A stretch of DNA of 64,000 bases from Thiothrix fructosivorans. GTDB taxonomy: Bacteria; Pseudomonadota; Gammaproteobacteria; Thiotrichales; Thiotrichaceae. The notes under the pieces were generated by a model that worked only from the letters and a program-made list of their open reading frames with translations, was not told where the DNA came from and did not search any database. Every line of letters starts with the position of its first letter. Positions within the stretch are counted from its first letter, which is position 1. Location of the stretch: NCBI RefSeq assembly GCF_017349355.1, contig NZ_JAFMPM010000008.1, positions 1,364,001 through 1,428,000 on the forward strand. Direction: 5' to 3'. This document shows, piece after piece, positions 32,955-54,425 of this stretch. The position numbers and the translations under genes were made by a program.

Positions 32955-33531
32955 TTGTTTCATTTGTCAAAAGCAAAAGAGAAACCTGGTGTTTCGCCAC
33001 CAGTAGCCTACTGACCCATGCGGTGCTGGTAACGGTGCGGTGTGAAGCGGTCAGGACAAAGTAACCTGCCATAAGGCGGCGTAGGTTTCGTGAGGAAACA
33101 CGCTATCTGTAAGCATCAATGCGGATGGGAGCTAGGCTTGATGGTATGACTAACGAAAGTGAACTGCTGATAAACATCGTAAAGCAGAACGAGCTAAAGA
33201 TGCTGACAAGCTTGAGCCAAAAGGCAAATGGCTGGTTAATCCCCTCCTCCATGGGATTACGCGGACACAACAGCCATCGGTGAACAGGCAGGGTCTACCC
33301 CATCATTGTCACTCAAGTGGAACAGGATAAGCCCGTATCCCCGCCAGCAATGGCAAGCCGACCGTAAGGGAAGCCGATGGGAATGCGGGTATGGGATGCC
33401 AGAAAAAGCGAATGCCACTCTGTAATGGGGTGGACAGGGGTTGAAACATCACCCTGCCCAAAAGGGTGCAGACTTCTGGCGGGTCTCTCTTTGCAGGAGA
33501 GTTTGTAGGACTTTTACAGGAGGTTGGACAA

Positions 33532-35219
33532 ATGAACGAAGCGCAAGCCAAGTGTGCCACCCCCGATGGCGTGGTGGATTGGCACGGAATTGACCGGGCA
33601 AAAGCACATCAGGCCACCCAAAAGCTGCAAGTGCGTATTGCAAAGGCAATCCGGGAAGGGAAGCACCGCAAGGCAAAATCCTTGCAATGGCTACTGACCC
33701 ACTCGTTTTACGCCAAATGCATGGCGGTCAAACGTGTCACGGAAAACAGCGGCAAAAAGACTGCCGGGGTGGACAATGAAACTTGGGACACTCCACCGGC
33801 CAAAGCCAAAGCAATAGTGGGTCTCAAACGCAGGGGCTACAAGCCCCAGCCACTGAGACGGGTATATATTCCCAAAGCAAACGGCAAGCAACGCCCGTTA
33901 GGCATCCCGACGATGAAAGACAGGGCTATGCAAGCACTTCACTTGCTTGCCCTTGAACCCATCTCGGAAACCACAGCCGACCCGAACTCATACGGGTTCA
34001 GGCCAAAACGGGGTTGCAAGGACGCAGCGGAACAGATATTCATCAGCATGGCGCAAAAAACGCAGGCAAAGTGGGTATTGGAGGCAGACATCGCCGGGTG
34101 CTTTGATAACATTAGCCATGAATGGTTGCTCGCCAACATCCCTACGGATCGGCGATACTCAGGAAATGGCTGAAGGCAGGGTTCGTGTGGAAAGGGGTGC
34201 GCTCCGATACGGAAGCAGGCACTCCACAGGGCGGTATCATATCCCCCGTACTGGCAAACATGGCACTGGACGGATTGGCGGGTAAACTGGCTAAGCCTTC
34301 CCAAAAATCACTGGACGTGGCAGGGCGACCAAGGTCAATTATATCCGATATGCCGATGACTTCATCATCACGGGCACAAGCCCGGAAGTGCTGGAAGAAG
34401 CCAAACCATCACTGAACGGTTTCTGGAGGCAAGGGGACTAATCCTCTCACCGGAAAAGACCAAGGTGGTGAACATCTCAGAAGGTTTCGACTTTCTGGGC
34501 TGGAATTTCCGCAAGTTACAACGGGAAGATGATGATCAAACCTGCCAAGAAGAACGTTTAAAAAACTTCTTGGCAGGCATCAGGCAACTGATAGACAGTA
34601 ATAAGACCGCCACACAGGAAAAACCTGATCCGCCTCCTCAACCCCAAAATACGGGGATGGACGGAGTACCACAAAAACCAAGTGGCAAAGGAAACATTTT
34701 CCGATGTTGATCATGCCATCTGGAAAAAGCTATGGAAATGGGCAAGACGGGCGACACCCCACAAACCCAAAATGTGGGTCAAGGCTAGTATTGGCCTCAC
34801 CACAATGGGTGTAACTGGACGTTTAGGGTAAAGGTGCTGGACAGGAAAGGGAATGGGGTGTGGCTTGACCTGTTCAAGGCATCCTCTGTTCCCATTGTCC
34901 GGCATGTCAAGATTAAGGCAGATGCGAACCCCTATGACCCGGCGCAGGAAGAATACTTTGAGGAGCGGTTTCAACGCCACTTCAAGGAGGAAGCCCACGG
35001 CGCTAGGATCAAATACCTCTGGCACTCACAGGACGGCAAGTGTACCGCTTGTGGGCAAACCTGACCAAGCAAACAGGGTGGCACGTCCACCATGTTATAT
35101 GGCGGGTAAAAGGGGGTACGGATGACTCGCGGAACTTGGTCTTAATGCACCCGGACTGTCACCGACAATTACACAGCCGTGTAAACCGTGGGTTGCCGAC
35201 CACCCTGAAAAGTGGCTGA
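33532..35219 (+). pseudogene. Group II intron-encoded protein (RT-maturase-HNH), frameshifted
   Basis: Starts MNEAQAKC with AGGAGG upstream. Frame one carries RT segments up to motif A (LEADIAGCFDNISHEWLL) near 34130. Motif B (GTPQGGIISPVLAN) is in a second frame, RYADDF (about 34345) in a third, and a later shift leads to FDFLGWNFRK. The C-terminal HNH signature (HPDCHRQLH) ends at 35219. At least three frameshifts make it inactive unless sequencing errors explain them. Confidence 0.85.
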
Positions 35220-36663: not shown

Positions 36664-38460
36664 TTATGGTTTAGGTCGTTTTATCCATGCCCAGCTAATG
36701 AGGGCTACCAAAGGTAAGGCTACCAGCAGCGTCATTCCCCCTTCATGGAGGTGTTTTGCCCCCCACTGCCAGAGTGAGAGTGACGGTGTATTAAAGTCTT
36801 TAACCATATCGTTTAAGACAGGTAGTACAGCCAGATACAATGCCCCCAAGGCAAAGGCAGCACCCCAATGTGTCAGTTTGGTGCTCAATTGGCTGAGCGC
36901 GTTGCTTAAATCGCTGCTGTGGGCTTCGCGTTGAGCGTTCAGGTATTCATCCGTGCGGCTGATTTTTTCCTTGATGCGCTCGTAATGTACCTGCAAGTTC
37001 AACCCCTGCTGTTGGAGGCGGAAAATCTCTTTGCCCTGCATTTGGTCGGTCAGTTCCGGGAACCAATACTGGTTGGTAAAGCGAATGAATGCTTCGAGTT
37101 GCTCCTTGATAAGCTTGATTTTGTCTTGATCCTTCAGCAGTGTCAGGGTGGTCTCTATCATTTTGTGGTCGTAATGACGTAACGATGCCTGATAGAACAA
37201 TGCTTGTACCAACATGCGGTTATACAGGTGTGGAATATGGCAGGTAGCGATACTTCGGCGGAAAAACCCACCATTTGAAACGTAGGCATTCACCCTGTCG
37301 GTGTAGAAATAGTTACTGCCAACGGCTTTCCACAAATCGAAGCATTTCCCTTGCAGATAACGGTCGGTTACTTCAGCAGTGTAGGGATAATCTTCTACCC
37401 AGCAATCAGCAACCCGGTCAGTGAAGCCTGCCAATGTATTGATCTTATGCAGGGTTTCGTCAGTGTGTTGTTTGCCTGCCAACCCGTAAGCCACGCTAAT
37501 AAACATACGGTCGTCATAGAGGGCAATATTCTGTTTTAACCAAGTTTCCAACGCCGCTGCTTGCGGTTTGAAGAATTGTTGGAGCAAAAAAATAATGATG
37601 GGAGACAGGTCTTTACCCGGATGCTCCGGCATTTCCAGCTTTTTCATGGATTCATCAAAAGCGGTTTTCAATGTTTCGCCGGTCACGGAATTCAGGCACA
37701 GTTTGGCTATCTTGCTCTCATCCCCCTGTTCGGTGAAACTGCGGTAGAGCTGCCGCCCCAAGCGGGAAAAGCGTAACCACGCTTCCAGTTGTAATTTTGG
37801 ATAGACATCACGATCAGGGTCATAGGGGCTGACATCTGCCAGCTTTTGTATGCTGCCTGCAAACAGGCTCACAGTCGCATCAGCTTCTTTATCCAATTCC
37901 CATGCAGGTTTTCGTTCCTCTACGGGTATTTGTTTTTCTGCCTCTGCCAGTTCGTTTCTTTTTTGTTTAACCCGCTCTTGTAGTGGTGGCAAGACTTCTG
38001 GTGTGACGGTGAATGCCAGCACATAAATACCATTGAAATACCGGAACAGTTGCACCGATTGGAAGAGGGCAGTTTGTTGTGTCAGCGGGGTTACATCTTT
38101 GTCACCATCTGCTTTGTGCAGTGTCATGCGCCAGGGCTGAATAACCTCTTGGGGCAAATACCATTCACGCATTGGCGTCAGGGTTTGCGGCGAATGCTCA
38201 GTATCTTCAGTGCCACGATCAAACAAGATATTACGCAGAATGGGGGTGAAAAAGTGAAATGCCTGTGCGTCACACTCGCTCGATGCACTGCCCGCCGGAT
38301 AAGTTTTACGGGTGGCTTCTGGCTTGAACTCGTCGGGTAAGCCGATCAGCGGCAAGAAAAACGTGCAGTGGTAATGATCCAGCAGCAGGGTTTTGAGTTC
38401 ATCGTTGGAAGGTGCAGACATAAGAGGCATCCGATAGCGGCAAAAGTGGGATAATGCCAC
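36664..38460 (-). CDS. Large soluble protein with two C-terminal TM helices
   Basis: 598 aa from a GTG at 38460, or 585 aa from an ATG at 38421. Residues 1-480 are soluble. About 485-530 form a helical stalk (YERIKEKISRTDEYLNAQREAHSSDLSNALSQLS) leading into two hydrophobic segments near 530-550 and 572-592. This stalk-plus-hairpin layout recalls CorA-like channels, but no GMN motif is present. It lies between the orphan CRISPR and array 1 and could be a membrane effector of the type III system. That is inference from topology and position. No named family recognised. Confidence 0.6.
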   Translation of the reverse strand: MALSHFCRYRMPLMSAPSNDELKTLLLDHYHCTFFLPLIGLPDEFKPEATRKTYPAGSASSECDAQAFHFFTPILRNILFDRGTEDTEHSPQTLTPMREWYLPQEVIQPWRMTLHKADGDKDVTPLTQQTALFQSVQLFRYFNGIYVLAFTVTPEVLPPLQERVKQKRNELAEAEKQIPVEERKPAWELDKEADATVSLFAGSIQKLADVSPYDPDRDVYPKLQLEAWLRFSRLGRQLYRSFTEQGDESKIAKLCLNSVTGETLKTAFDESMKKLEMPEHPGKDLSPIIIFLLQQFFKPQAAALETWLKQNIALYDDRMFISVAYGLAGKQHTDETLHKINTLAGFTDRVADCWVEDYPYTAEVTDRYLQGKCFDLWKAVGSNYFYTDRVNAYVSNGGFFRRSIATCHIPHLYNRMLVQALFYQASLRHYDHKMIETTLTLLKDQDKIKLIKEQLEAFIRFTNQYWFPELTDQMQGKEIFRLQQQGLNLQVHYERIKEKISRTDEYLNAQREAHSSDLSNALSQLSTKLTHWGAAFALGALYLAVLPVLNDMVKDFNTPSLSLWQWGAKHLHEGGMTLLVALPLVALISWAWIKRPKP

Positions 38461-39807: not shown

Positions 39808-41364
39808 GTCTCACAGCCTAAACGGCATCCCGCCCCTGCAACTGATTAGTAAACTCAGTGAGGCAGATGAAGTAATGCGTCTCACAGCCTAAACGGCATC
39901 CCGCCCCTGCAACAATTCTGACACGTTCAAGGGCAAGCAAACGCAAATGTCTCACAGCCTAAACGGCATCCCGCCCCTGCAACGTGTTTTTCAATATTTT
40001 GCACTGGAGGTGCATATGTCTCACAGCCTAAACGGCATCCCGCCCCTGCAACTCTTGGTTCAAGAGGTTTTTGTAGAGAAGGCGTCTTACAGCCTAAACG
40101 GCATCCCGCCCCTGCAACGAACCCAGAGTGCGTGAAGGAAAACGGTAACTAGTCTCACAGCCTAAACGGCATCCCGCCCCTGCAACAACTCGGCGTGCAA
40201 TCCACTGGCGCTGGCGTAGTGGTCTCACAGCCTAAACGGCATCCCGCCCCTGCAACAAAGCGTGGCGCACTTCGGAAACTGTGCGGTTGGTCTCACAGCC
40301 TAAACGGCATCCCGCCCCTGCAACTCAAATGGTTCGTTTGAATGGAAATTTTCTTACAGTCTCACAGCCTAAACGGCATCCCGCCCCTGCAACCCAACCG
40401 GGTTCGTCGCTTAATCCCATTCAGTACAAGTCTCACAGCCTAAACGGCATCCCGCTCCTGCAACGGATTTTTTTATGATCGATCGCAAGGAGTTTTACAA
40501 GTCTCACAGCCTAAACGGCATCCCGCCCCTGCAACACCAGCCACCAAAAACACACGCCATGCCCGGGGTCTCACAGCCTAAACGGCATACCGCCCCTGCA
40601 ACCCGGTGAGGTTTACAGTTGCAATCAGTATTTGGGTCTCGCAGCCTAAACGGCATCCCGCTCCTGCAACAATATCGCAGGCAGCAATACTCTGTCTGGC
40701 AACGTAGCGTCTCACAGCCTAAACGGCCTCCCGCCCCTGCAACTCGGTGCAGTCGTGCGGCTATCAATGCGGATGTTGTCTCACAGCCTAAACGGCCTCC
40801 CGCCCCTGCAACATTGAAGCCGGAAAATTGAGTGGTGCCATTCATCGGTCTCACAGCCTAAACGGCATCCCGCCCCTGCAACAGAACTGCTATGACTGAT
40901 GCATATAAACCTGGTGTCTCACAGCCTAAACGGCATCCCGCCCCTGCAACCCCGGTTCGCGTTGTTCGTCTTTCCGCGCCTGCGTCTCACAGCCTAAACG
41001 GCATCCCGCCCCTGCAACTACGAAAAATGGTACAGCTATCATCTAGTTCAAGTCTCACAGCCTAAACGGCATCCCGCCCCTGCAACCAGAAGCACCTTTG
41101 TTAGGTCGCCTTATATGGGACAATGTCTCACAGCCTAAACGGCATCCCGCCCCTGCAACGCATACCCACGAACTAAAGAAGCTTTTGAGTCGTCTCACAG
41201 CCTAAACGGCATCCCGCCCCTGCAACGGTGATAGCTGTAAAAGTAGCCCCGAAACTGATTCGTCTCACAGCCTAAACGGCATCCCGCCCCTGCAACGGAT
41301 TGCAAACACGTCGCCAATGGTGATATGTTGTCTCACAGCCTAAACGGCATCCCGCCCCTGCAAC
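39808..41364 (-). CRISPR. CRISPR array 1 (23 repeats of 35 bp, 22 spacers)
   Basis: Repeats read GTCTCACAGCCTAAACG...CCCTGCAAC on the plus strand. Spacers are 31-38 bp and all different. Variant repeats cluster at 40084, 40430, 40568, 40636, 40709 and 40778. I place transcription on the minus strand because the reverse repeat ends in TGTGAGAC like the GTTAAGAC end of array 2, because the cas operon lies upstream on that strand, and because plus-strand spacers read as sense coding sequence. The leader would then be at 41365-41578. Confidence 0.95.
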
Positions 41365-41578
41365 AGCACCCCATTTTCCACCAATAGAATCAATGCCTTG
41401 GACGGCGATTTGGTGAACCTCAGCGGTACGGACAGAAAAGCGGTTAAACAGCATTCATTTTCACTCGTTGCAAATGCTCAAGTCATTGATCACAAAGGGT
41501 TGGTGAATCGTTTATGATTAGCGCATTACGCCACCACCAACCCCCTCACGTTACAGGAGCGGGAACAAAATTATACCA
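41365..41578 (-). promoter_or_regulatory. Probable leader of array 1
   Basis: 214 bp between the last cas stop codon and the first repeat in the inferred direction of transcription. Contains AT-rich blocks (AACAAAATTATACC near 41578, TCGTTTATGATTAG near 41515) and no cas2. Leader identity is inferred from position. Confidence 0.5.
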
Positions 41579-44227
41579 TCACCGCGCCCGAAACGCATGA
41601 AAAGCCTCACCCTTCGTCACAAACCCCTTCAACGACAACGCCTGCGCCCGCAACTGATCCAACCAACTCTTCGCCGCATCATCCCCCCGCGCCGTCAGCT
41701 TGTTCTCCCAACCCTGCATCAACAACGCCAAAAACTTACGCCGCGCCGCATCGCTAATCAAACACGCCCGCTCCGGCGTATACCGAAAATCAGTCGCCAC
41801 AATCTCCCCCCGTGCCACCATCGACAACGCGCTACGCTCCACCAAATGCCGGAACGGTTCCATCAAATCCGACGCCAACACCGCATGACGCCCACGCGGC
41901 TGATGGTAAAACCCCTGCCAAGGCAACAACCCCACCGTATGCACCACACTCTCCGTCAAGCTATACAACTGCGTATACCCCAACGACAACAACACATTAA
42001 ACGGGTCACGCGGCGGGCGACGATTCCGCCCCTCAAACCGAAAATCCACAGGCAACACACTCGCAATCCGCGCAAAATACTCCCGCGTACTGCTCCCCTC
42101 ATACCCCAGCAAACTCGCCAACGAATCCACCTTCGGCAACTTACGCAACGCCCCATTAATCACCGGCAAATCCTCCGCCAACTGCCGATGCCGCAAGGTC
42201 TCCTTCATGTGGATCAACCGCGCCTGCACCACCTCTTTGGCACACGCCAACACCTTCGCCTCATCCTGAAACGCCAGAATCTGCTGCACCCACAAACTCT
42301 GATGCTGGCTATTACGGTTATGCGTAATACACCCCTTATAATTCCCCTTACCACTCGCCAAATGGATCGGAATATCCTCATCCAACGCCGTGTGCATTGC
42401 CTGCGTCGTCACCTGATGATTCCCCAGCAGCAACACCATCTCGATACTGTTCCAGGGCAATTGCATCAGCAACTCATCCTTACGGTAAACGTGCAACTGC
42501 CCATTGGAAGTCGTCAGCACCGCCGGATCGCCCGTGACGGTCACAAAGCTCCCGGTACGTTCGCGTTGCCCGACTTCATGAATAATCACACCTGACGCTT
42601 GCTCCGCAGGGGCTGCCGCCGAACGCTGGTGCTCGACATCATCCCGCATCAGTTCCGCCAACAACGGGCTGAGTGGCGACCCCAACGGCAAACCCCGCGT
42701 CCGCGCTACGGATTCACCCGCACACACCACCTCCGCCCGCAACCAGCCAAGAATCGCCGCCACCACCGGATCGTTGTGGTAAACCGCCACCAATCGCCCG
42801 CGCAACCGTTCCAGATCAATGCTGCCGAAAAAGTCCTGAATATCGCCCTCATACACCCAACGATAGCCCTCCGCCCACGCCTGACGAATCGCCTGACCCG
42901 GATCGGTATCTCGCCCCTCACGCTGTGCCGCCAACAAAGCCCCCAAGGTATGCGCCAACACCTGCTGCACCGCCCGCTGCAACACCCGATCATACGTCGG
43001 CGCAACCGCCAACAAATGCATCCCGCCACTGGTTTTCGGCAACCAATAACCCTGTGCTACCGGTGGCTGATACGTGCCGTGCAACACCCGCTCCAAATCC
43101 GCCTGCAACTGCTCCAACGGCAACTCACTGCTGGGAATAGCTTCCTCAGCATCCGCGTCTATACTTACCGCATCATCGTCTTCATCGTCCGGCAAATACC
43201 ACCGCGCCACTTCCGGCTCATCCACCAAACCATCGGGGATGTCTTGCCCCGCCTGCACATACGCCCACGCCTGACTCAGGTTCTCCTCGGTTTGCGCCAA
43301 CATCAGCAAGGAACTCGCCGGAAACACCCGCCGGTAACTTTGCCCACCTTCCGCATCCACCAGCAGGTAACGACCCCACCCAAACGTGGTGCGCTGCCCC
43401 ATGCCAAGGTATTGCCCCAGCACCAACAATTCCCACCACCCTAACGCCAGATTAGCAGGCAAGTGCAAGCTCAGGTGCCCACTCACCCCGCCCATGCTTT
43501 GGTACTGATGGTCAGCCCCGCGATAACCCGCTTCCAACCAGAACAGATGCGCAGCGCTGATCTCCACCGGCGGCGCTGTCGTCAACGGCATGGTTTGGGT
43601 TTCCCCGCGCCGCCGCAACAAATCCGCCACCGCCGTATGCACCCGGCTACACAACAACGCCCCGCTCAAGTCGGGCGCATCACGCACATACCGCGCTTCA
43701 CCTTTGGCCTTGACGCCTTCCGCCTCACGCTGCTGCTTATCCTTGAGCAACAGGGCAGGGGAGAGCCATTGCCATTGCACCTGCTGCTTGCCTTCCCACA
43801 ACGCCACTTCGGCTTGCAAGGCATCGACATCATAACAACACGCCTCCGCCAGACTGCTTACCGGGTTGCCGGTGAACATATCTTGCACCGCCTCCAGCCG
43901 CCAATTGTCCGCAAACGGCAAACCCTCGCCCTGTTTCGGCGCACTCTGCGGCAAACCCGCCAAGCCCGCCAGCAGCGCATCCAGCAACGCCTCACTCCCC
44001 GCCAGCCCCAGCAACAAGAAGCGGTAATGCTCACCCGCCCGGTAACTGACCCGCCCACTTTCCGGCGTATCAATGCGGATAAGCTGGTCATACTGATCAG
44101 GTGAACCCGCCAGAAAACGCAAAAACGCGGTCAACGCAGGCTGATGAAAAAACGCCAGCCGCGCCGTCGCAGTACAGCGCAAGGTAATCACCAAACCGCG
44201 CAGCGGCAACAGGGTGTGTAGACTCAT
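41579..44227 (-). CDS. cas1: Cas6-RT-Cas1 fusion with truncated RT domain
   Basis: 882 aa. Residues 1-290 are a Cas6 RAMP (C-terminal GQRTTFGWGRY). Residues 385-530 are RT-like, with motif A D462 (EGDIQDFF) and motif B 511-521 (RGLPLGSPLSP). Residues 555-882 are Cas1 with catalytic E710 (GYEGSSTREYF), H775 (GFYHQ) and D787 (ASDLMEPF). Only about 33 residues separate motif B from Cas1, so the YxDD motif C, thumb and D/E motifs are absent. The frame is intact. Known Cas6-RT-Cas1 proteins acquire spacers from RNA. This one should keep Cas1 integrase function but lack polymerase unless RT is supplied elsewhere. Last gene of the operon, 11 bp after the RAMP gene. Confidence 0.9.
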   Translation of the reverse strand: MSLHTLLPLRGLVITLRCTATARLAFFHQPALTAFLRFLAGSPDQYDQLIRIDTPESGRVSYRAGEHYRFLLLGLAGSEALLDALLAGLAGLPQSAPKQGEGLPFADNWRLEAVQDMFTGNPVSSLAEACCYDVDALQAEVALWEGKQQVQWQWLSPALLLKDKQQREAEGVKAKGEARYVRDAPDLSGALLCSRVHTAVADLLRRRGETQTMPLTTAPPVEISAAHLFWLEAGYRGADHQYQSMGGVSGHLSLHLPANLALGWWELLVLGQYLGMGQRTTFGWGRYLLVDAEGGQSYRRVFPASSLLMLAQTEENLSQAWAYVQAGQDIPDGLVDEPEVARWYLPDDEDDDAVSIDADAEEAIPSSELPLEQLQADLERVLHGTYQPPVAQGYWLPKTSGGMHLLAVAPTYDRVLQRAVQQVLAHTLGALLAAQREGRDTDPGQAIRQAWAEGYRWVYEGDIQDFFGSIDLERLRGRLVAVYHNDPVVAAILGWLRAEVVCAGESVARTRGLPLGSPLSPLLAELMRDDVEHQRSAAAPAEQASGVIIHEVGQRERTGSFVTVTGDPAVLTTSNGQLHVYRKDELLMQLPWNSIEMVLLLGNHQVTTQAMHTALDEDIPIHLASGKGNYKGCITHNRNSQHQSLWVQQILAFQDEAKVLACAKEVVQARLIHMKETLRHRQLAEDLPVINGALRKLPKVDSLASLLGYEGSSTREYFARIASVLPVDFRFEGRNRRPPRDPFNVLLSLGYTQLYSLTESVVHTVGLLPWQGFYHQPRGRHAVLASDLMEPFRHLVERSALSMVARGEIVATDFRYTPERACLISDAARRKFLALLMQGWENKLTARGDDAAKSWLDQLRAQALSLKGFVTKGEAFHAFRAR

Positions 44228-44238
44228 AGCATGACCAC

Positions 44239-46173
44239 CTAACTTGCGAGTGTTGGCAACCGCTTACCGGGGGCAACACTCTCTAAAGCCTGATGAATAG
44301 CCCGTTGGTTGCGGCTGTCATTTTTGCCAAACCACTTAAACCCTTCGCCTTCGCTATACGCCTCTTGTCCCTTGTTTGAGTCAAATGGGTAACACACTGG
44401 AATATGTGCCGGTACATTGCTGGGATTGGCAAGCCAGCGCAATTCTTTTAATGCTTTGGCATTTACAAGGCTGATGTCAGGCTGTTTTGACCATGTTTGA
44501 TAACGCCCACCCTGCAAACCTAGACGTGAATAACGCTGCTGGCGATTAATCGTTTCCACATCAGCTTCAAGTTGCACATGCCCAAGACCCAAGGGCTTGC
44601 CTAGACCCAGCCGATGCACAAAGGTACTACTTGCTTCTGCGGGTTGTAACGCGGTCAACAACAAACCCAGTTCTGCTTCACTCAAATTTTCAAAGTGGAC
44701 ATAAAAACGCAATTCCACTTGAGCAGGAATAGGTTGGCAGCGCAGGTGCATGTGAGGACGGTAATCTTTATCCCCTGTTTCCCGTTGTGTTTCCCAGTCA
44801 TTGCGTGGTAACTCAAAGAGTGAACGGGGGTGTGGCAGATACTGCTTACGTCCGTTAGGCGTGTCACTACCCAAATCAAGGTCGGTTTTGGCAACATACC
44901 GCCCATGACCACTGAAATACAGGGCAGGCGATGGCGGTTTGGGAGAGTTGAGGATTTTTAAGATAACCGCATCTTGCAACTCAATCGGCTGGGTAACAAT
45001 GGCATCGGTAAAACGTACCCGTGATGCCAGATTACGCGCACCGCCGCGTTTCTTTTCATCCGGTTGGTCTTCCACAACGCCAAACAAGGCTTCGGCTGGG
45101 GTGAGGGCATCCCGCTCAGCATTCCAGGGTAGACTGTTGATCCCCGCCGTTTTCTTGAATGCCCCATGCAGATCACTGGGTATGGCCTTGCGCCAGATGG
45201 AGGAGTAGCTGATTTCTATCACTTCACCATTGGTTTCTCGGTAATACAACAAGTCGCCATCCAATACCAAAGGCTTGTCATCCTTGACTTCCCAGCCACG
45301 CGGCTGGTTAGCATAACCTTTGGGTAACATTTGCTCGGATTTGGTTGCACGATCTTTGGGATCTTTAATCGTGGCGTATAGTGTGCGCAGAATCGTTTCC
45401 AACACTGTTACCACATTGGACTTGATGGGTAACAGTTTGCCATCATCAATCTTGCCATCCCACGGCAGGTAATATTCACGCCGTTTGCCCAGTTGTTTGT
45501 TTTCACCGCGTATGTAGTAAATACCTGCTGCGTGCGAACCATAGCTATGGGATTGGCTATTGTGATGACGCTGATAGCAAGCCTGTTTTTTCAGAAATTG
45601 GGTTTCTTTCTGCCAGCGTTGGCGGCATTCCGCATTATCGCCTTTATCCAGATAATCACCGACTGGGATAGCTTTGTTGTCTTCATCTGCCAATGGGTAA
45701 ATGGCAAAATGACCATCAGCTTGTTTGCATAGCAAGCCAAGCTTTTTCAGGGGAGCATCTTCAATGCCCGCATTTTCAGCTTGTGCGGCTTTCCTGACCG
45801 AGTATTCCCCATTTTCCGCTTGTATCAGCACCCGCAAGCTGGATTGGCTGATGGTTTCGGCGATATTACCTACCATCCCTCGCAGACTGTTGCCGGGAAT
45901 CGCTGGATTACCATCACGGTCACGGTAGGGTGTGACACTGCCCGGAACTCCCTTGTCTTTATTACTCGCCTGTTGTTCAGCACCCACCACCAGCGGACTG
46001 AGTGTTTTCAGTGTGCAGGTGATACGCCCAGACAACCCATCCTTATGCCAGTAATCGTGACGGATGAAACGGTTTTCGACCCGTTCCAACCCATCCAGTG
46101 TTTTCCACTCATCGGTTTTGGTTTTACGGGTGTCGACCCGGATAAACTGATAAGGGTGATGGAATTCTGTCAT
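44239..46173 (-). CDS. Cas7-type RAMP with insertion (TIGR03986-like)
   Basis: 644 aa from MTEFHHPYQF, whose ATG overlaps the preceding stop. The Cas7 motif AIPGNSLRGMVGNIAE sits near residue 100. A long central insertion of about 250 residues separates it from C-terminal RAMP strands and a Gly-rich loop (RLGLGKPLGLGHVQLE). The size and motif order match TIGR03986, a RAMP found in RT-containing type III loci, and the Cas7-insertion subunit of III-D variants. Role: backbone subunit on crRNA. Confidence 0.8.
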   Translation of the reverse strand: MTEFHHPYQFIRVDTRKTKTDEWKTLDGLERVENRFIRHDYWHKDGLSGRITCTLKTLSPLVVGAEQQASNKDKGVPGSVTPYRDRDGNPAIPGNSLRGMVGNIAETISQSSLRVLIQAENGEYSVRKAAQAENAGIEDAPLKKLGLLCKQADGHFAIYPLADEDNKAIPVGDYLDKGDNAECRQRWQKETQFLKKQACYQRHHNSQSHSYGSHAAGIYYIRGENKQLGKRREYYLPWDGKIDDGKLLPIKSNVVTVLETILRTLYATIKDPKDRATKSEQMLPKGYANQPRGWEVKDDKPLVLDGDLLYYRETNGEVIEISYSSIWRKAIPSDLHGAFKKTAGINSLPWNAERDALTPAEALFGVVEDQPDEKKRGGARNLASRVRFTDAIVTQPIELQDAVILKILNSPKPPSPALYFSGHGRYVAKTDLDLGSDTPNGRKQYLPHPRSLFELPRNDWETQRETGDKDYRPHMHLRCQPIPAQVELRFYVHFENLSEAELGLLLTALQPAEASSTFVHRLGLGKPLGLGHVQLEADVETINRQQRYSRLGLQGGRYQTWSKQPDISLVNAKALKELRWLANPSNVPAHIPVCYPFDSNKGQEAYSEGEGFKWFGKNDSRNQRAIHQALESVAPGKRLPTLAS

Positions 46174-47594
46174 GCTGCTTGCTCCTGTGTCATCACGCCC
46201 AATTGTTGCAACAACTCGTTTTCCCATTGCTGCAAGGTCTCATCGTCTAGCTTTGTCAGCCAAGCATTCCAGCCGCCGTGTTCAGATACCAACCGTACCC
46301 GCCCATAGCCCTTGCTTTTGCCCCAGCCCAGCACTAAATCACCTTCTTGTGCATCCCGCCATGCAAACAGTAATAGCAACTGCATCCAGCCGGTTAGCTT
46401 GTCTTTGCGGTAAGCGATGCGCCCGCTGAACATTTCCCTGACCCACAATGCCCTGACTTTATACAAAGCTGAATCTTTGACCCCACCTGTGAAACGATCA
46501 ACCGCATTGAAGGTTTGCCAGTGTTTATCATCTTCGGTAAACGCTACTGTCGCATCGTAAAAACGCACATGCCCTTCACCATCAGTGCTGCCAAACAGTT
46601 GTTTAAGCAATACGTCTACGTCTTCTGCTTTCTTACTGCTGGTATCTTGCGCCAGCGTGAGCAGAATGCGGCGACAATGCGCACGGAACCAGCCTTTGAG
46701 GGTAGAGCCGGGAACAAGTGCTTGCTTGCCCCGCACCATGAAAGCATGGTTGGGCAGGCGTTTCCTGTCTTCCGCATCATCCGTGGAATACTTCTTGAGT
46801 ACATCTGAGTCATGTGGGTTGTTAATCAGTATCGGCGACTCAGGCTGCAAGCCAAAGGTTTCCTCTACCCATTCGCCACTGCGAATACCCGTTACCGTTA
46901 GAGTCGCAAGGTTATCCAGTGGAATGGGTTTGAAGCTGCTAGTGAGTGGTGTAGCATTTGGTCTGCCAACCCAAGAACAGAAATCAACCTCACTCAGCCC
47001 CAGCACACTAACGGATTTCCAGCGCAGGCAACCCTGACCACTGCTTTTGCCTTTGCCTAATTGTCCACTAGGTTGTTCGCCAAAGGATTGCAACGCGAGC
47101 AGCAGCGTAGCAATGTCTTGCTCCGTGATTGGGGTGCGTTGGTTGCCTTCCAGCATGATTTCTACGTCAAACACACTGCCAACCGGAACAGCTTCGTGAG
47201 TGGCAAGGTGGTGGCGTTTAGCTGTGCCGCTGACAGCATCAATACTGGTTCGACTGATCTTTGCCCTGTCTCCACCTGATGTTTTGAGTCGGGCATCATA
47301 TACCCGCACAACGCCTGCTTGCCCTTGTGCAATAGCATCGCTTGCTTGCCGTGCATCTCCAAACAAGAAAGCACGGGTATTGTCGTCCACACTCAGGCTG
47401 CGCAAATAACCACGCAGTGTTGAAGCAGGGATATAAGGTTTTTTGTCTACATCCAGTAACAACGTATTGAATGAAAAGATTTCTTCCTTGTCTGTGGGAG
47501 TAGCACGGGTATATGTAGCCTCATCCCCCGTACCAATGTGCAGTTCTGAACAGGTAGTGAGGGTTCCGCTAAGGGTTACACGACGATAGCTCAT
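46170..47594 (-). CDS. Double Cas7 (Csm3-like) subunit
   Basis: 474 aa with two successive Csm3-like RAMP modules. Each has a PxIP.STL(R/K)G motif (YIPASTLRGYLR near 55, LVPGSTLKGWFR near 295) and an IDxxxG motif (SIDAVSGTA at 119, AVDRFTGGV at 366). Gly-rich loops end each half (GKGKSSGQG, GWGKSKGYGRV). Two fused Cas7 units match the Cas7-2x subunit of III-D variants, where Asp residues cut target RNA. Overlaps both neighbours by 4 bp. Confidence 0.85.
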   Translation of the reverse strand: MSYRRVTLSGTLTTCSELHIGTGDEATYTRATPTDKEEIFSFNTLLLDVDKKPYIPASTLRGYLRSLSVDDNTRAFLFGDARQASDAIAQGQAGVVRVYDARLKTSGGDRAKISRTSIDAVSGTAKRHHLATHEAVPVGSVFDVEIMLEGNQRTPITEQDIATLLLALQSFGEQPSGQLGKGKSSGQGCLRWKSVSVLGLSEVDFCSWVGRPNATPLTSSFKPIPLDNLATLTVTGIRSGEWVEETFGLQPESPILINNPHDSDVLKKYSTDDAEDRKRLPNHAFMVRGKQALVPGSTLKGWFRAHCRRILLTLAQDTSSKKAEDVDVLLKQLFGSTDGEGHVRFYDATVAFTEDDKHWQTFNAVDRFTGGVKDSALYKVRALWVREMFSGRIAYRKDKLTGWMQLLLLFAWRDAQEGDLVLGWGKSKGYGRVRLVSEHGGWNAWLTKLDDETLQQWENELLQQLGVMTQEQAA

Positions 47595-49399
47595 GCGTTG
47601 TCACCTCCGTTTTGCAATGGGCGTTCTGTTTGAGCAGACCAGTTGACACAAATTTCCCCGAAACCGTGTTCAGGTAGATAGGGGGTATCTTTCCACGTTA
47701 CAGGCTGATCCTTTGCTTCTGTATGGGTAGGTAAACCTGTCCGCATCCATTGTTGAAGTTTCTCCAGACCTGCATTGGTTTCCACGGTTAGGACAAACAC
47801 ACTTCCGGCAACCGTCAACCATTCCGGGGCATAAGCATCCCGATTCTGGAAATGTCGGTGCTGATAGGCTCCACCCCGGCGTTTTTGTTGAGCAAAATGG
47901 CGTTGTAAGCTCAAGCCATTCCCTGCAACGTTTTCCCAATAAGCCGCATACAAGGAATGCAGGATACTGTCTGATTGCGTTCCATCTCTCCATTGATTCG
48001 CCAACACCTGTTCGAGATGTGCAGGCAACAAAAGGGCATCACTCATCAGTGTGACTATTGCTGTCTCACCGACTTGTGGTGTTGCTCCATGTGGTGTGGC
48101 AAATGCTTGCGGGTAAACGTCCACTTGTGCATAAGCTTTGGTTTTGCCTATACCGTCCAACCCTTGTTGCAAGCAAGCCACCAAGTTTTTCAGCACTTGC
48201 GGGCGGCGTTCATCAGCAACCAAGCTCAAATCAACATTGCCGTACCAAGCAAAATCATGCGGGTCAACACACTCCACACTAAATAGGCGACCTTCTTCAG
48301 CCGTACCACTGTCACGGGAAATTTCTGTCCTAACCAGTAGCAAACGTTCAGGGCTGGCTAGGCTGAGACCACAGTCTTCGCTTGCCTTACTCCATTGCGC
48401 ATCTTTCCAGTCTGGTTGGAAAGCAGGGATGTCTTGCCAGAGAAAATGTTGCGGGTTATCCAAACCCGACATATCCACCAGCTTATCTTGATAAAACGCA
48501 AGGCTCAACGGTAGCGGTGGTTGACGTGTTGCGGTTTTGGCAGGCAGGGCATGGCTAAAGACCAGTTGGTCAAAGCACAAAGCATCCTCTCGCGCTTGTT
48601 CGCTGGCATATTGGTTAGCGATGACCGCTTTGATCACATTGCCACTGATGAAATCGTCAGACACGACCCGGTTGCTGTCCGGTGTGCGCGGTTTACCAAT
48701 ACAGAAGGGGCGATCCAAGTGAAGGCTGATACCGAAGCGAACAGTATTTGCCGGTAATGAGAGGGGCGTTTTCTTTCCAGTCGCAGTCATTGATGCTGGT
48801 TTGAGTTCGGCTTTCAATAACCGACCATAACCAATACCTTTCAGACTTCCCATTGCCGGGATAAAGCTAAGCGTTTTGTTAATCCATTTCTCGAATCGTT
48901 GGCGTTCTTCCGGATCTTTGAACGTGGCGCGTAATTTTCCGCTAAATACGGGTTTAGTTCCTGTGGGGAAACAATCTTCAATCGTCTGCAACGCACCCGA
49001 TTCGACACTTCCCTGTTCACCCAATTGAATACGGGTGCGATGCCCACCTTGAAAATCCTTGTCTTGCAACAGCCAGAACAGATCAAAACGAACATTACCC
49101 CGCTGTGGTTCCATGTTGCTTTCACTGGATGCTTGCCCAAACCAGTCCAAACTGGCATTGAGCAGAGACTGACTTTTGTTCTCTGGCAAGGCTTCGACAA
49201 GCTGCCCCAAATAATCGCGGATATTTCCCCGAACCAGACTGCCATTGATAGCGGGTTGTTCACGGTAACGCTGCATAGCCGTGTCCACGCCAAGCCTGAG
49301 CGTACCAGACTGTTGTGACAGCAATGGCCCGGCAAATGTCAGGCGTAATTCGTACACAATGTTTTGGACAGGGTTTGTCTTGGGTTTTTTATTACTCAT
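47591..49399 (-). CDS. Cas7-Cas5-like fusion (Csx10-like C-terminus)
   Basis: 602 aa. Residues 1-210 are a RAMP with a Gly-rich GSLKGIGYGRLL. Residues 220-600 form a second RAMP with GLDGIGKTKAY and a C-terminal stretch (RRGGAYQHRHF ... GSVFVL) that recalls Csx10/Cas5 of type III-D. This domain pair resembles the Cas7-5-11 subunit of III-D variants, although I cannot see a Cas11 part. Translationally coupled to Cas10 and the double Cas7. Confidence 0.75.
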   Translation of the reverse strand: MSNKKPKTNPVQNIVYELRLTFAGPLLSQQSGTLRLGVDTAMQRYREQPAINGSLVRGNIRDYLGQLVEALPENKSQSLLNASLDWFGQASSESNMEPQRGNVRFDLFWLLQDKDFQGGHRTRIQLGEQGSVESGALQTIEDCFPTGTKPVFSGKLRATFKDPEERQRFEKWINKTLSFIPAMGSLKGIGYGRLLKAELKPASMTATGKKTPLSLPANTVRFGISLHLDRPFCIGKPRTPDSNRVVSDDFISGNVIKAVIANQYASEQAREDALCFDQLVFSHALPAKTATRQPPLPLSLAFYQDKLVDMSGLDNPQHFLWQDIPAFQPDWKDAQWSKASEDCGLSLASPERLLLVRTEISRDSGTAEEGRLFSVECVDPHDFAWYGNVDLSLVADERRPQVLKNLVACLQQGLDGIGKTKAYAQVDVYPQAFATPHGATPQVGETAIVTLMSDALLLPAHLEQVLANQWRDGTQSDSILHSLYAAYWENVAGNGLSLQRHFAQQKRRGGAYQHRHFQNRDAYAPEWLTVAGSVFVLTVETNAGLEKLQQWMRTGLPTHTEAKDQPVTWKDTPYLPEHGFGEICVNWSAQTERPLQNGGDNA

Positions 49400-51042
49400 G
49401 GCTTAGCCCCCTTGGCAGGTATTAGGTAGTCCCACAATTCCAATAAATGTAACCAGCACCAAGCGCGTTCTTTCGCCTCATCCATGTCCAAGGCAAACAA
49501 CTGTTCAATCATGACAGGAAGCTCTTGCTCGACGGTTGTCCTGTTTGCACCGTCCAAGGTACGCAGCATCTGGAACTCTGCCTGTTCCTGAAGACTGGCT
49601 TCTTGGATGGTTTCTTGCGTGGCATCACATAAGCCATTCCAATCCAGCGTTCCCTGTGGTTCGTTACTATTAAACGTGTCAACGATGCGGTAAAGCTGGC
49701 GAATCGGTAACATGCCATCCCCCAATAAACGGTGCAAACTGGCTTCGGCTACCTGCCAATTTGGAGCGGATGGGTGTCCTGCTGGGCGTGATTGCTGGAG
49801 AGCCGTACCGTAGCGCTTTCCAAAATAAGCATCCAGATCGTCACGGGTCGGGTAATCAACCGATTCCAGCACCAGATAATCCCAGCCATCTTTGTCCCGC
49901 CCGTACTTGTCCTTTACCCGTTCTGCCAATTTGCGGGCAAGGTTTTGGATAATACGTATCGGGGTTTTCGCTTTGCAGAATACAATTCCCGCTGCATGGG
50001 TGAATTGCTCTTGCTGCTGGTCATCCAGCTCCCATAAACGGGTATGTGTAAAGAACTGTTGCAAAAAGCTGGTTCCTAACCATGCGGGTAAGACAAACAG
50101 CATTTCATCGCCGCCCCAGAGTAATGTTTCCAGACGAATTGCGGGAAAGTTGCCACCACCGTCTTCTTCATCTTCACTGAAACGTGTCACTGCATCGGGT
50201 AATTTGCCGTCCAGCATTTTGGTTATGATGTCCTCCAAGAACTGGTTGCGCCAAGTCTGGATACAATCATCAAAGGCTTGCTGTGCGGCAATACCATCCT
50301 GTCCCGCACCAATCGCTTTTTGTAGGTAGCTGTCTTGACGTTTGCCGAAGCCATTCCCATCAATATAGATGACAGCCATTTTGCCATTGAGATTGCCGTA
50401 GGCTGGGTTTTCACAGAGTGTTTCAATATCAGGCACAAAACGGTACTTCGCCAGCCTGTTTTGCAAGTCATCGCTCAATCCATTGAGGTAATAACTCTGT
50501 TTCTGCTGCCGCCCGTATTCACGGCGTTGGAAAACGGACAGGGATAAGTGGCGTTTGGGCTTATCCAGCGTCGCTTGGACTTTGCGTTGTGTACGGTTAG
50601 CCGCAATACGGATACCTTCCAGTTCGCATGGCTCATCCCGGCTGGTGTGTTTGCCTTCAAATACATCAGGGGTAAGTGTCAAAGCGCGTAACTGGCGGAA
50701 ATGCAATTGCGCCCATAGCTGCCGTTTGGCTTGCAAGATGTCCCCAGCTTGACAATGTTCCACCAGAAAAGTCAGGTGGCGAAACTGCGGATGTGTCCGC
50801 AAGCTCTGCGTCACAGCTTCGGCAATACCCTCGATAGCTTTCGTTGAAGCCATTTTCAGGCAGAATAAGCCGGACGATGCCCCCGTGGAAACCGCTTCCA
50901 GATCAGCCGCAAACTCTTTTTGGATATGCGTGACCGCATCCTTATACAAAAAGCTGCTGCCACGAATCACACTGAGTTGGTCAGTGTCGTAGATATTGGC
51001 GTAAAGGTTGACCCCTTCCACCAACAGAAAATGATGCCCCAT
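49396..51042 (-). CDS. cas10: HD-less Cas10 with GGDE palm
   Basis: 548 aa, short for Cas10. Residues 1-100 look like a first palm-like domain (ANIYDTDQLSVIRGSSFL). Residues 222-325 are the catalytic palm, with YIDGNGFG (D228) and LLWGGDEMLFVLP (G310-E313). Canonical Cas10 has GGDD; here it is GGDE, with both acidic positions kept. No N-terminal HD nuclease is present. C-terminal 430-548 is helical. It likely makes cyclic or nucleotide-adduct second messengers on target binding. The neighbouring SLATT gene is the candidate responder. Confidence 0.82.
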   Translation of the reverse strand: MGHHFLLVEGVNLYANIYDTDQLSVIRGSSFLYKDAVTHIQKEFAADLEAVSTGASSGLFCLKMASTKAIEGIAEAVTQSLRTHPQFRHLTFLVEHCQAGDILQAKRQLWAQLHFRQLRALTLTPDVFEGKHTSRDEPCELEGIRIAANRTQRKVQATLDKPKRHLSLSVFQRREYGRQQKQSYYLNGLSDDLQNRLAKYRFVPDIETLCENPAYGNLNGKMAVIYIDGNGFGKRQDSYLQKAIGAGQDGIAAQQAFDDCIQTWRNQFLEDIITKMLDGKLPDAVTRFSEDEEDGGGNFPAIRLETLLWGGDEMLFVLPAWLGTSFLQQFFTHTRLWELDDQQQEQFTHAAGIVFCKAKTPIRIIQNLARKLAERVKDKYGRDKDGWDYLVLESVDYPTRDDLDAYFGKRYGTALQQSRPAGHPSAPNWQVAEASLHRLLGDGMLPIRQLYRIVDTFNSNEPQGTLDWNGLCDATQETIQEASLQEQAEFQMLRTLDGANRTTVEQELPVMIEQLFALDMDEAKERAWCWLHLLELWDYLIPAKGAKP

Positions 51043-51059
51043 AACGTTATCCTTACCGT

Positions 51060-51575
51060 TTATTGATCGACCGCGTGCCGATGTCGCCCTTCTTCAATGT
51101 CCTTACGTGCCAGTTCATACGCTTTACGCGGGATCACTGGCGCGGTTTGGTTCAGTTCGTCCTTTTTGACCGATAGCTCCAGCAAACGCTTTTTCAGTGC
51201 CTGCATGTCTTGCTCGGTGGTGCTGACCAGTTCGATTTCCCGGAAAATCCGCGCCGCGTTGCGCAAACTCAGGAACTGGTCGCCGTAAGATTTGTGGGTG
51301 GAAGCGTGGTCAGACGGCTTTAAAAAAGTCAGCGTTGCGGTCAGTACCGTGCCAATGGTAGCCAGAATGCCTGCCCAGAAAGCCTGATCGGCAAACGCTG
51401 TAGCACCCGCCAGTGCTGTGACCACCGCAGCGGGCAACCCCAATACCAGATTCCAGCTTTTCCAGTCTTCCGCTGCATTGAAATGCCCTTTGCAGGAATA
51501 GGTGCTGTCTTCCTCAATGCGTTGAATTTCCTGCACCATGTTGGGCAGTAATTCCCCCGTTTCAGCTTGTGGCAT
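51060..51575 (-). CDS. SLATT-domain two-TM membrane protein
   Basis: 171 aa from MPQAETGELL, chosen because it begins 10 bp after the cas6 stop and after a G-rich site. A helical N-terminus (EIQRIEEDSTYSCKGHFNAAEDWKSWN) leads to two TM helices (LVLGLPAAVVTALAGATAF and WAGILATIGTVLTATLTFL), then HKSYGDQFLSLRNAARIFREIEL and a charged helix. This is the SLATT pattern: small 2-TM proteins that act as pore-forming effectors in nucleotide-signalled immunity. It lies inside the operon between cas6 and cas10, 17 bp before cas10. Use as the effector of this type III system is inferred. Confidence 0.82.
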   Translation of the reverse strand: MPQAETGELLPNMVQEIQRIEEDSTYSCKGHFNAAEDWKSWNLVLGLPAAVVTALAGATAFADQAFWAGILATIGTVLTATLTFLKPSDHASTHKSYGDQFLSLRNAARIFREIELVSTTEQDMQALKKRLLELSVKKDELNQTAPVIPRKAYELARKDIEEGRHRHAVDQ

Positions 51576-51585
51576 GTAGCCCCCG

Positions 51586-52524
51586 TTATGTTTCCAGTAA
51601 AACCCGTTGTAACTCGTATCGCCCCAACCCCATATTGGTGCTCTTGCCCGTGTGCAACCATTGTCCAAGGTATAAGTATGGCCAAAAGTCAGCCAAGTTC
51701 CCGCCTTGTAGAAAAATATCGCCCAACCAGCCTTTCACCGGCTGTTCACGCTGTTGGCGCGAGGAATAACGCTGCCAGCCCCCTGACCAAACATTGGCTT
51801 TGTGGCGGATGTGGGCGGACTGATGTTTGAGTTCGCCAAAGTCCGCTTCCAGTGGTGAATTGGTGTAAAACTGGTGCAATAAGGAAACGCGCCGCACTAC
51901 ACCCATCAAAAAGCGTTCCACCGCAAAGCCCTCACCGTGGTCACCCATATTGGTTGGGGTAATGAAATGAATGCGGGCAGAAGTGGCGGGTTCGGGTATG
52001 GTGGGTGGTTCAAGCGGTGCAGCACGGAAGAAAATATCATCGGCGTAAATCACGCTGGCATTGCCACACACCGGCAATTGCACCACTTCTTGCAAAGCTG
52101 CCCGCCCATAGCCTTTGCCCAAACCGCCTTGCCCCGCCAATTGCATGGCTTCAATGATTGGGCGCACGTAATGGTTAGCGTGTGCCACCAACAACAGCTT
52201 GACGGAAAACCAGTCGCCGGGGTTGAGCCGCCGCGCTTGCTGGCGTTGCACCCGAAACACATACGGCACGGGAAAGGTAGAAATGGTTTTTAGAATACCG
52301 GCATCTTCACGCACTTCTGGCATTTGTGGCTCGAAAATCCGTGCATACAAACAATCATCCGTATGGACTTCTTGCCCGCAACAATGCAGGTGACGTAATG
52401 CATGACCAAATGCTCCGCGCCATAATGAGCCGGTAAATTCAGGGAAATCAATAGCATCCACTGCCCGAAACAAGAAGCGGTATTCAGCGAATGTTAGTCT
52501 GGAAGGGGAGGTTTCAACAGACAC
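51586..52524 (-). CDS. cas6: Stand-alone Cas6 crRNA endonuclease
   Basis: 312 aa. The C-terminal half carries the Cas6 signature WLGDIFLQGGNLADFWPYLYLGQWLHTGKSTNMGLGRY in broken form: Gly-rich loop HTGKSTNMGLGRY and the domain's HIRHKANVWSGGW segment. An N-terminal GSLWRGAFGHALR matches PF10040-type Cas6. First gene of the operon. A second Cas6 module is in the Cas6-RT-Cas1 fusion, so the two may serve the two different repeats in the island. Confidence 0.87.
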   Translation of the reverse strand: MSVETSPSRLTFAEYRFLFRAVDAIDFPEFTGSLWRGAFGHALRHLHCCGQEVHTDDCLYARIFEPQMPEVREDAGILKTISTFPVPYVFRVQRQQARRLNPGDWFSVKLLLVAHANHYVRPIIEAMQLAGQGGLGKGYGRAALQEVVQLPVCGNASVIYADDIFFRAAPLEPPTIPEPATSARIHFITPTNMGDHGEGFAVERFLMGVVRRVSLLHQFYTNSPLEADFGELKHQSAHIRHKANVWSGGWQRYSSRQQREQPVKGWLGDIFLQGGNLADFWPYLYLGQWLHTGKSTNMGLGRYELQRVLLET

Positions 52525-52871
52525 AAGTACAAGCCCAAAAAAAGATTTATGGGAGTGTAACTTATCTGGGCTGATGAATAAAGCAGCGACTTGTTGATGC
52601 CGAGCAGCGGATGTCGGTGTTTCTGGTTCATCGGTGTTGAATCCGAGGGCGGAACGGCTGTTTCATGTGGATAGCAAAGCGGTGATGGCATTGCTGGAGT
52701 TGTGGCTGAAACAAGGGGTTTGAACAGTTATCATAAAATCCACCTAAAACTACTTAAATATTGTTATTTTAAATAGTTTTCAACGTGAGGAGTTACCATT
52801 CATCGGTGATACCTAACGGTAAAAACACTTGCCACTAGACAAACATCCCGCTGCATCGCATCCTATCACGC
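52525..52871. other. Gap upstream of the cas operon
   Basis: 347 bp. It should contain the cas operon promoter on the minus strand. On the plus strand 52640-52723 reads NPRAERLFHVDSKAVMALLE...KQGV then TGA, the tail of a lost gene. From about 52800 it shares spaced blocks with the upstream flank of the first tnpB, so it holds the left end of the TnpB element. Confidence 0.45.
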
Positions 52872-54080: not shown

Positions 54081-54092
54081 TTATAGGTAGAT

Positions 54093-54425
54093 TTGGGTAG
54101 GTTTGAAATAACGGCGCATCACACCAGCTTGCTGGGGAGTGATCGGGGTATTTCACAAGGGGCGATATTGTCGCCGCTGATGTGTAATTTGTACCTGCAT
54201 GATTTTGACATTGCACTGGAAAAGGCTAATATACCGTTTGTGAGGTATGCGGATGATTTTTTGCTGTTTACCTCCAGTAAAGTACAGGCAGAACAGGCAC
54301 TGGATTATGTGCGCAGCCTGTTGAAGAAGCTGGATTTGGAATTGAAAGATGAGAAAACCCGTGTGGTGCGTTCCAGCCCTGAAGTCGTGTTCCTTGGAGA
54401 GCGACTTCCTGTGCCGAAACGCTGA
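54093..54425 (+). pseudogene. C-terminal half of a reverse transcriptase (RT-Cas1/intron-like)
   Basis: 110 codons from a TTG. It has motif B (RGISQGAILSPL), motif C (VRYADDFLLF) and the following helix (EQALDYVRSLLKKLDLEL, EKTRVV) ending FLGERL. Motif A and fingers are missing upstream, where tnpB intervenes. The LYLHDFD...YADDFLLFTSS pattern resembles the RT of RT-Cas1 proteins. Probably the relic of a second adaptation gene that once served array 2. Confidence 0.75.

Follow-up and report, generated by a model that had tools for sequence, protein, structure and literature searches.

A Cas6-RT-Cas1 fusion of Thiothrix fructosivorans that probably lost its reverse transcriptase in two stages and kept a sound Cas1

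Fusions of Cas6, a reverse transcriptase (RT) and Cas1 are thought to exist for taking spacers out of RNA. What, then, is left of such a protein once the catalytic part of its RT has disappeared? This question is raised by a gene of Thiothrix fructosivorans (assembly GCF_017349355.1, contig NZ_JAFMPM010000008.1), located in a stretch of 64,000 nucleotides that we call the window and whose first letter is position 1 of the coordinates used here. The gene is a single unbroken reading frame of 882 codons, in agreement with the in-frame fusion proposed by an initial annotation of this DNA, and it lies on the minus strand, which that annotation did not give. We consider it probable that this is a type III-D-like Cas6-RT-Cas1 protein whose RT was lost in two stages, the remnant consisting of Cas6, an annex formed by the RT fingers, and a sound Cas1. 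The gene and its parts are the following:

41579..44227, minus strand, cas6-RT(stub)-cas1 fusion gene of 882 amino acids (stop-free open reading frame, Pfam and PDB matches)
43328..44227, minus strand, Cas6 domain, residues 1-300, with H28 and R37 retained
42623..43117, minus strand, RT stub, residues 371-535 (RVT_1 positions 2-140 of 205)
42842..42844, minus strand, Asp462 of motif A, retained according to the alignments
42665..42694, minus strand, motif B, GLPLGSPLSP, residues 512-521
42542..42652, minus strand, junction linker, residues 526-562, replacing the motif C, motif D, RT-helix and linker of relatives
41582..42541, minus strand, Cas1 domain, residues 563-882, with E710, H775 and D787

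The limits of Cas6 (residues 1-300) are those of its match to 6dd5, the Pfam Cas6 model alone staying below its cut-off. The stub contains the N-helix, the fingers, degenerate motifs 1 and 2, motif A, and a motif B carrying Q515L, and 6 of its 33 conserved columns are changed (one deleted position set aside). The Pfam model RVT_1 matches residues 397-534 only and falls short of a full fingers-palm domain; one of the three catalytic Asp residues is left. Meanwhile, Cas_Cas1 matches residues 563-835 (profile positions 2-280 of 283), the E, H and D of the active site are complete, and 54 of 55 conserved Cas1 columns are kept. Asp462, motif B (here residues 512-521) and the three Cas1 residues were all found at the positions first assigned to them. 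As a member of the Cas6-RT-Cas1 group, the protein thus has the N-terminal Cas6 and the Cas1 active site, and lacks a YxDD or FxDD RT and an adjoining cas2.

The extent of the loss is clear from the alignment with the Cas6-RT-Cas1 chain of Thiomicrospira (7kft/7kfu). Query residues 367-533 correspond to chain residues 356-529 and query residues 552-837 to chain residues 647-942, leaving 117 chain residues opposite 18 query residues at the junction. The chain residues thus skipped, 530-646, include FADD as well as the RT-helix, to which K574 belongs (residue names as in the available text of PMC8102632). This alignment and the end of RVT_1 at position 140 bear out the description of about 110 residues, with YxDD and motif D, gone without a frameshift. 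The net shortening is 90 residues relative to G048 (972 amino acids), a full-length protein of the same genus, and 111 relative to G043 (993 amino acids), that of Thiothrix sp. HKST-UBA238. The search for an alternative motif C within residues 525-560, suggested by the initial annotation, revealed none in the alignment. The excision was not clean, as about 45 nucleotides (nt) of the junction linker have no convincing match in G048, and a simple repeat collapse was ruled out as its origin because there is no clean junction. In addition, four positions just before the junction (L528R, F531V, D532E, D534Q) are altered in the window and unaltered in G048. Together with the unmatched linker, these changes argue against a very fresh deletion.

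G048 is the closest relative found (Cas1 94% identical, one-contig genome), and it suggests that damage to the RT came before the cut. Its motif C reads TQDK where YADD is expected, and after motif B it has 3 of 23 conserved columns changed, including the second Asp of motif C. Window and G048 share R404H in motif 1, a position that is R in all 39 other rows compared, the loss of the motif 2 signature HGYRxGRS, with five residues fewer, and Q515L in motif B, where all 40 other rows compared have Q. The two are sisters in the Cas6 (98/86), RT (100/100) and Cas1 (100/99) trees, near G043, as expected from common ancestry. The stem branch leading to the pair is long in the RT tree, at 0.72 changes per site; the Cas6 tree gives 0.06 (0.15 once the branch in common with G053 is included) and the Cas1 tree 0.21. 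The shared lesions and the long RT stem suggest that RT function was most likely lost before the split. Judging from these sequences, RT catalysis was most likely already dead in the common ancestor, the stub of the window is almost certainly dead, and the segment would have been removed from the window lineage after the RT had died. Loss of RT function, as first proposed, is thereby supported by the absent motif C and the shared lesions in motifs 1, 2 and B; a recent inactivating deletion is not, since the full-length sister was already damaged.

Based on these findings, we propose a first stage in the ancestor shared with G048, during which RT motifs 1, 2 and B would have been damaged by point changes together with a small deletion. 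A second stage, restricted to the window lineage, would have cut out motif C, motif D and the RT-helix in frame and eliminated the upstream cas2. The remaining protein would comprise a Cas6 maturing CRISPR RNA (crRNA), the fingers stub as a structural annex, and a Cas1 with an intact active site, which could do no more than integrate DNA, and that only with help in trans from the Cas2 of another module. Acquisition of spacers from RNA by this protein would be over. Most likely it still works as a Cas6; the scaffold role of the stub and the present state of acquisition are what we infer.

How unusual such a protein is was assessed with an alignment-based scan of genome contigs, which yielded 46 loci, of which 38 are of the Cas6-RT-Cas1 kind or pieces thereof, from Gammaproteobacteria, some Zetaproteobacteria and one Desulfobulbus metagenome-assembled genome. 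As duplicates of G043, G015 and G031, L063, L065 and L076 did not enter the counts; the weak RT-only matches L101-L108 were excluded, and the pieces of L097 (two) and L100 (three) were counted as separate rows. Motif C is YxDD or FxDD in 40 of the 47 rows of the joint alignment (FTDD in one). The seven exceptions are the window, with nothing at this place, G048 with TQDK, and G038, G053 and three gene pieces lacking the motif, all five of which are truncated genes or gene pieces. For the count of motif conservation G053, L090, L096, L097_2172, L100_7332 and L100_7802 were also omitted, leaving 38 functional rows. The scan patterns were RT motif A and the region after motif B; because they sit in the RT, the scan is biased to intact RTs and RT-dead proteins are under-sampled.

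A search with Cas6 only, over 275 genomes of the class with completeness of at least 80, gave 14 matches besides the window. Six had E below 1e-10: three YADD/FADD proteins, two palm-less stubs and a 125-residue fragment. Within the order, 7 of 63 genomes had a strong match to the window Cas6, namely G043, G015 and G031 (YADD/FADD), G048 (TQDK), the window itself, G038 (ending inside the RT) and G053 (Cas6 without RT or Cas1). Scans of genome and viral sequences with the query P0001 alone returned no relatives, and the fold search (VIA-align rows) covered mainly residues 557-882 and Cas6. Among the homologues gathered, the search for proteins sharing the junction retrieved no second one that also has Cas1. 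The titles and abstract openings found in the literature describe no natural palm-less Cas6-RT-Cas1; a literature search for Thiothrix found no paper, and a word search of PMC5513706 for RT inactivation, truncation or Thiothrix came back empty. Streptomyces RTs with WGDD in place of YADD were set aside as only distantly related (PMC6013744, in the part available).

Is the remnant still under selection? Between window and G048, the ratio of amino-acid-changing to silent substitution rates (dN/dS) is 0.13 for Cas6 (95% confidence interval 0.087-0.185), 0.21 for the stub (0.122-0.333) and 0.074 for Cas1 (0.042-0.116). With G043 as outgroup, Cas1 underwent 4 amino-acid and 21 silent changes in the window lineage and 6 and 25 in that of G048. 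The corresponding counts for Cas6 are 13 and 18 against 12 and 29, while the stub accumulated 7 amino-acid and 7 silent changes in each lineage. These ratios and counts indicate that the stub is relaxed yet not free, whereas Cas1 looks fully constrained. On the proposed reading, constraint would have continued after the deletions.

For structure prediction we ran AlphaFold2 with 29 homologues and folded the intact homologue L063 with the same set. In the window protein, Cas6 and Cas1 mostly reached a predicted local distance difference test (pLDDT) score around 90, as did the finger helices; the finger strands (391-410) scored 70-73, and values fell below 50 at 437-465 (motifs 2 and A) and 536-558. 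L063 scored 79-80 in the finger strands, 94 in the strand of motif A and 87-91 in the hairpin of motif C. The palm sheet is not predicted to form in the window protein. In the protein solved from Thiomicrospira, the Cas6 domain lies tightly against the RT, according to the text available from PMC8102632.

Palm-less RT fingers attached to a Cas6 also occur elsewhere. An open reading frame (ORF) of 553-592 amino acids joining Cas6 to an RT stub, with neither motif A nor YxDD nor any Cas1, is present in four of the four genomes searched in another gammaproteobacterial family, f50:

L153:8613-10259 (G245), orphan Cas6-RT stub
L154:9367-11043 (G111), orphan Cas6-RT stub
L159:7893-9668 (G336), orphan Cas6-RT stub
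L160:3383-5047 (G337), orphan Cas6-RT stub

The stubs of G245 and G111 sit near efp and beside an EAL-domain gene, with recA, alaS and an aspartokinase-like gene among the neighbours in G245. An EAL-domain gene also lies just upstream of the G336 stub, and that of G337 is at a contig end. The 19-kb stretches of G245 and G111 contain no CRISPR-like direct repeats, and no other cas genes were noticed near these two stubs among the ORFs listed, of which some were scanned. These orphan stubs look domesticated. Two of the six pairs could be measured on both parts, the other four being saturated on stub, Cas6 or both. In the measured two, stub and Cas6 are equally constrained (dN/dS 0.08 and 0.14 for the stub, 0.10 and 0.14 for the attached Cas6), the 0.08 pair being near saturation with a stub dS of 2.5. 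Relative to G245 the stubs are 35-36% identical and the Cas6 parts 60-62%, indicating that drift affects the orphan stub too. Of 11 conserved positions in the helix that follows motif 1, 10 are retained in each of the window, G048, G038 and the four orphan stubs. This helix and the constraint on the orphan stubs support, without proving, a role of the fingers for Cas6. The idea of a minimised RT with a structural role, offered by the initial annotation, therefore gains from the dN/dS of the window stub and from an independent, conserved palm-less stub in four genomes; what it lacks is a second same-junction protein with Cas1. We tentatively suggest that palm-less fingers may be a recurrent, selected, non-catalytic "pseudo-RT" module supporting Cas6, arisen at least twice, in the window lineage and in the orphan stubs.

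Other rearrangements of these domains were met. Candidatus Parabeggiatoa sp. HSG14 (L093:3027-5084) has an in-frame Cas6-RT-Cas2 fusion of 686 amino acids with FADD and no Cas1 domain, and G053, of the same genus as the window (L055:6644-7990), has an in-frame Cas2-Cas6 fusion without RT or Cas1.

The neighbours of the fusion gene are:

44239..46227, minus strand, TIGR03986 type III RAMP gene (NCBIfam E 2.7e-75, above cut-off)
46170..47594, minus strand, RAMP, Csm3/Cas7 III-D like
47591..49399, minus strand, RAMP, Csm4/Csm3 III-D like
49396..51042, minus strand, Cas10 (PADLOC E 9.4e-27)
51060..51668, minus strand, gene like a SLATT two-transmembrane effector (NCBIfam SLATT_4 E 3.5e-38)
51586..52524, minus strand, separate Cas6 (Pfam E 1e-12; PADLOC)
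36664..38460, minus strand, CorA-like gene, beyond the array (PADLOC CorA E 1.6e-66)

Cas10, the Csm3/Cas7 III-D RAMPs and TIGR03986 place the locus in type III-D, a subtype that rests on PADLOC names, TIGR03986 of NCBIfam denoting type III only. Cas10 and all three RAMPs share 95-97% identity with their G048 counterparts, at a dN/dS of 0.11-0.14. The CorA-like and SLATT genes flanking the locus are possible membrane effectors; their identity to G048 (58% and 84%) makes them far more diverged than the effector genes between. A free-standing CRISPR-type RT at 52598-54425 is broken into short N-terminal remnants, an IS605 OrfB/TnpB gene (52872-54080) and a YADD half (54087-54425), whereas G048 holds this RT whole, beside a cas1. 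The YADD half was considered as a palm acting in trans and ruled out: it is the C-terminal half of another RT, without motif A, 86% identical to residues 180-282 of the free-standing RT of G048 and cut by the IS605 OrfB/TnpB-type gene (Pfam).

The strongest rival, which we nonetheless hold unlikely, is plain decay: adaptation would have been lost, and stub and Cas1 would be passengers on a protein kept for its Cas6, or not kept at all. Both cas2 and the RT palm are gone, the free-standing RT is broken too, and two other genomes of the order have shortened genes, that of G038 breaking off within the RT and that of G053 retaining only Cas2-Cas6. Such decay fits poorly with 882 codons free of frameshift or stop, with a Cas1 dN/dS of 0.07 and a stub value of 0.21, and with effector genes as conserved as the three RAMPs and Cas10.

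Several observations weigh against the explanation proposed here. The constraint between window and G048 averages over time and is not datable to the period after the deletions. The stub is more relaxed than Cas6, in keeping with plain decay. Functional pairs show the opposite: in the five closest ones with both RT and Cas6 measured (G031 being skipped for a start-codon mismatch), the RT is tighter than Cas6 (e.g. 0.085 vs 0.236; 0.086 vs 0.137). L094-L098, a sixth close pair with genes stopping after FADD, has the reverse order (RT 0.36, Cas6 0.23). The window stub keeps 10 of 13 motif A positions and 13 of 15 conserved motif B positions, against 0 of 13 for motif A in the orphan stubs (motif C is 0 of 10 in both); being less eroded, it may simply be younger. 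The separate Cas6 in the locus means that the Cas6 of the fusion may be dispensable, and a sound Cas1 without its cas2 could equally be what one sees if adaptation ceased only very recently. Finally, synonymous divergence from G048 is a mosaic (0.5-1.2 over Cas6-RT, 0.19-0.31 over Cas1 641-840, 0.13-0.19 in the three RAMP genes and Cas10), suggesting that recombination blurs the timing. A staged loss leaving a working Cas6 remains, in our view, the probable explanation.

A somewhat less likely rival than decay concerns the Cas1 end of the protein. The initial annotation proposed a DNA-only integrase. In the form considered here, the Cas1 of the fusion would insert DNA spacers with the Cas2 of another module, the loss of the RT-helix freeing the Cas1 site. 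The chemistry appears possible. According to the accessible text of PMC11014452, an engineered RT-deleted RT-Cas1 of Marinomonas still acquires DNA spacers and integrates faster. In Thiomicrospira, the available part of PMC8102632 describes the RT-helix as thought to obstruct the Cas1a site, and D540A (RT) and K574A (RT-helix) as lowering DNA ligation by 20-33% and RNA ligation by more than 80%. These mutants of relatives fit the proposed chemistry, and the complete catalytic residues, 54 kept columns and strong constraint of the window Cas1 speak for the same reading. What the annotation did not notice is that cas2 is gone:

44228..44238, minus strand, slot of cas2 in G048, here 11 nt separating the stop of the RAMP gene from the start of cas6 (sequences, alignment)

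Window 44242/44243 corresponds to L049 11798/12076, the cas2 slot of G048. The gene lies directly upstream of the fusion in G048, G043 and G031, and is fused in frame to Cas6 in G053. Near the window gene there is no cas2 within 2.5 kb downstream, and the upstream slot holds only those 11 nt. A Cas2 match occurs downstream in 32 of 44 rows checked, and 5 others end with the contig; 7 of the 39 rows with room lack one (window, G048, G043 with 744 nt, L064 with 480 nt, L081, L094 and L098). A DNA-only integrase would consequently require Cas2 in trans. Four Cas2 matches exist elsewhere in the window genome, but they resemble the G048 Cas2 by 29-43% over short stretches at E 0.005 or worse (the best at 29% identity, E 0.005), and no close homologue of that Cas2 was found in the genome. 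As the Cas1-Cas2 complex is described, in the portion available of PMC9048733, as essential for adaptation in all tested systems, this reading is weakened.

The array and its leader are the following:

41365..41578, minus strand, leader, from cas1 to the first repeat (last 150 nt 93% identical to G048)
39808..41364, minus strand, CRISPR array with 23 repeats of 35 nt and 22 spacers

It is the only array with its repeat (up to 3 mismatches) in the genome. The repeat is identical to that of G048, and the two arrays (22 and 29 spacers) share no spacer, indicating turnover since the split, a point in favour of a DNA-only integrase. The spacers, however, may predate the losses, and an exact search with parts of the two leader-proximal ones found no match in IMG/VR viral contigs. 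A phage search of the array gave one non-significant match (26 bases at 96%, transposase A gene of Pseudomonas phages, E 0.5). Mean spacer length, 34.2 (standard deviation 1.8) against 34.1 (1.6) in G048, gives no sign of a changed acquisition mode.

That an assembly or sequencing artefact dropped the YxDD segment is very improbable: the genome is in 8 contigs, the junction holds about 45 nt with no convincing match in G048, adjoining conserved positions are changed in the window and not in G048, and the upstream RT lesions recur in the one-contig genome of G048.

Further features of this genome deserve mention. At G000:C6:1359324-1361749, an uninterrupted RT (FADD) occurs together with a Cas1 and two Cas2 matches, close to a 6-copy array whose repeat is a different one. 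The CRISPR region lies between direct repeats of 1.77 kb (28689-30448 and 62229-64000, 97.6% identical) that hold a gene of the phage integrase family (29287-30546), an arrangement resembling an integrated island. Arrays with 36-nt repeats at 54537-57008 and 58757-60585, containing duplicated repeat-spacer units, are split by an IS66-family transposase gene (57119-58696), and an ORF at 33466-34173, like a group II intron RT, spans the first half only of the RT profile.

If the RT was indeed lost in two stages, nature seems to have done the RT-deletion experiment stepwise, with G048 as a full-length, presumably catalytically dead intermediate. Window, G048 and orphan stubs together allow us to ask what an RT does for Cas6 and Cas1 beyond polymerisation, and the same case allows us to ask if Cas1 functions without its own Cas2.

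Known systems help to place this protein. In comparison with the Cas6-RT-Cas1-Cas2 system of Thiomicrospira (7KFT/7KFU, as described in the parts available of PMC8102632), it has no FADD, no RT-helix with K574 and no adjacent cas2. The Thiothrix sp. HKST-UBA238 protein (G043, the same as L063) is 60-61% identical to it over the whole protein and, unlike it, has YADD, a full motif 2, PQG and cas2 directly upstream. The engineered RT-deletion form of the Marinomonas mediterranea Cas6-RT-Cas1 (6DD5; PMC11014452, accessible text) is likewise free of RT catalysis and keeps Cas6 and Cas1; unlike that construct, the loss in the window is natural, staged and partial, with the fingers kept and cas2 missing. 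A Cas6-RT without recognisable Cas1, one record in the part available of Toro 2017 (PMC5541045), is likewise a fusion that lost a domain: there Cas1 was lost, while the window protein lost the RT palm and kept its Cas1.

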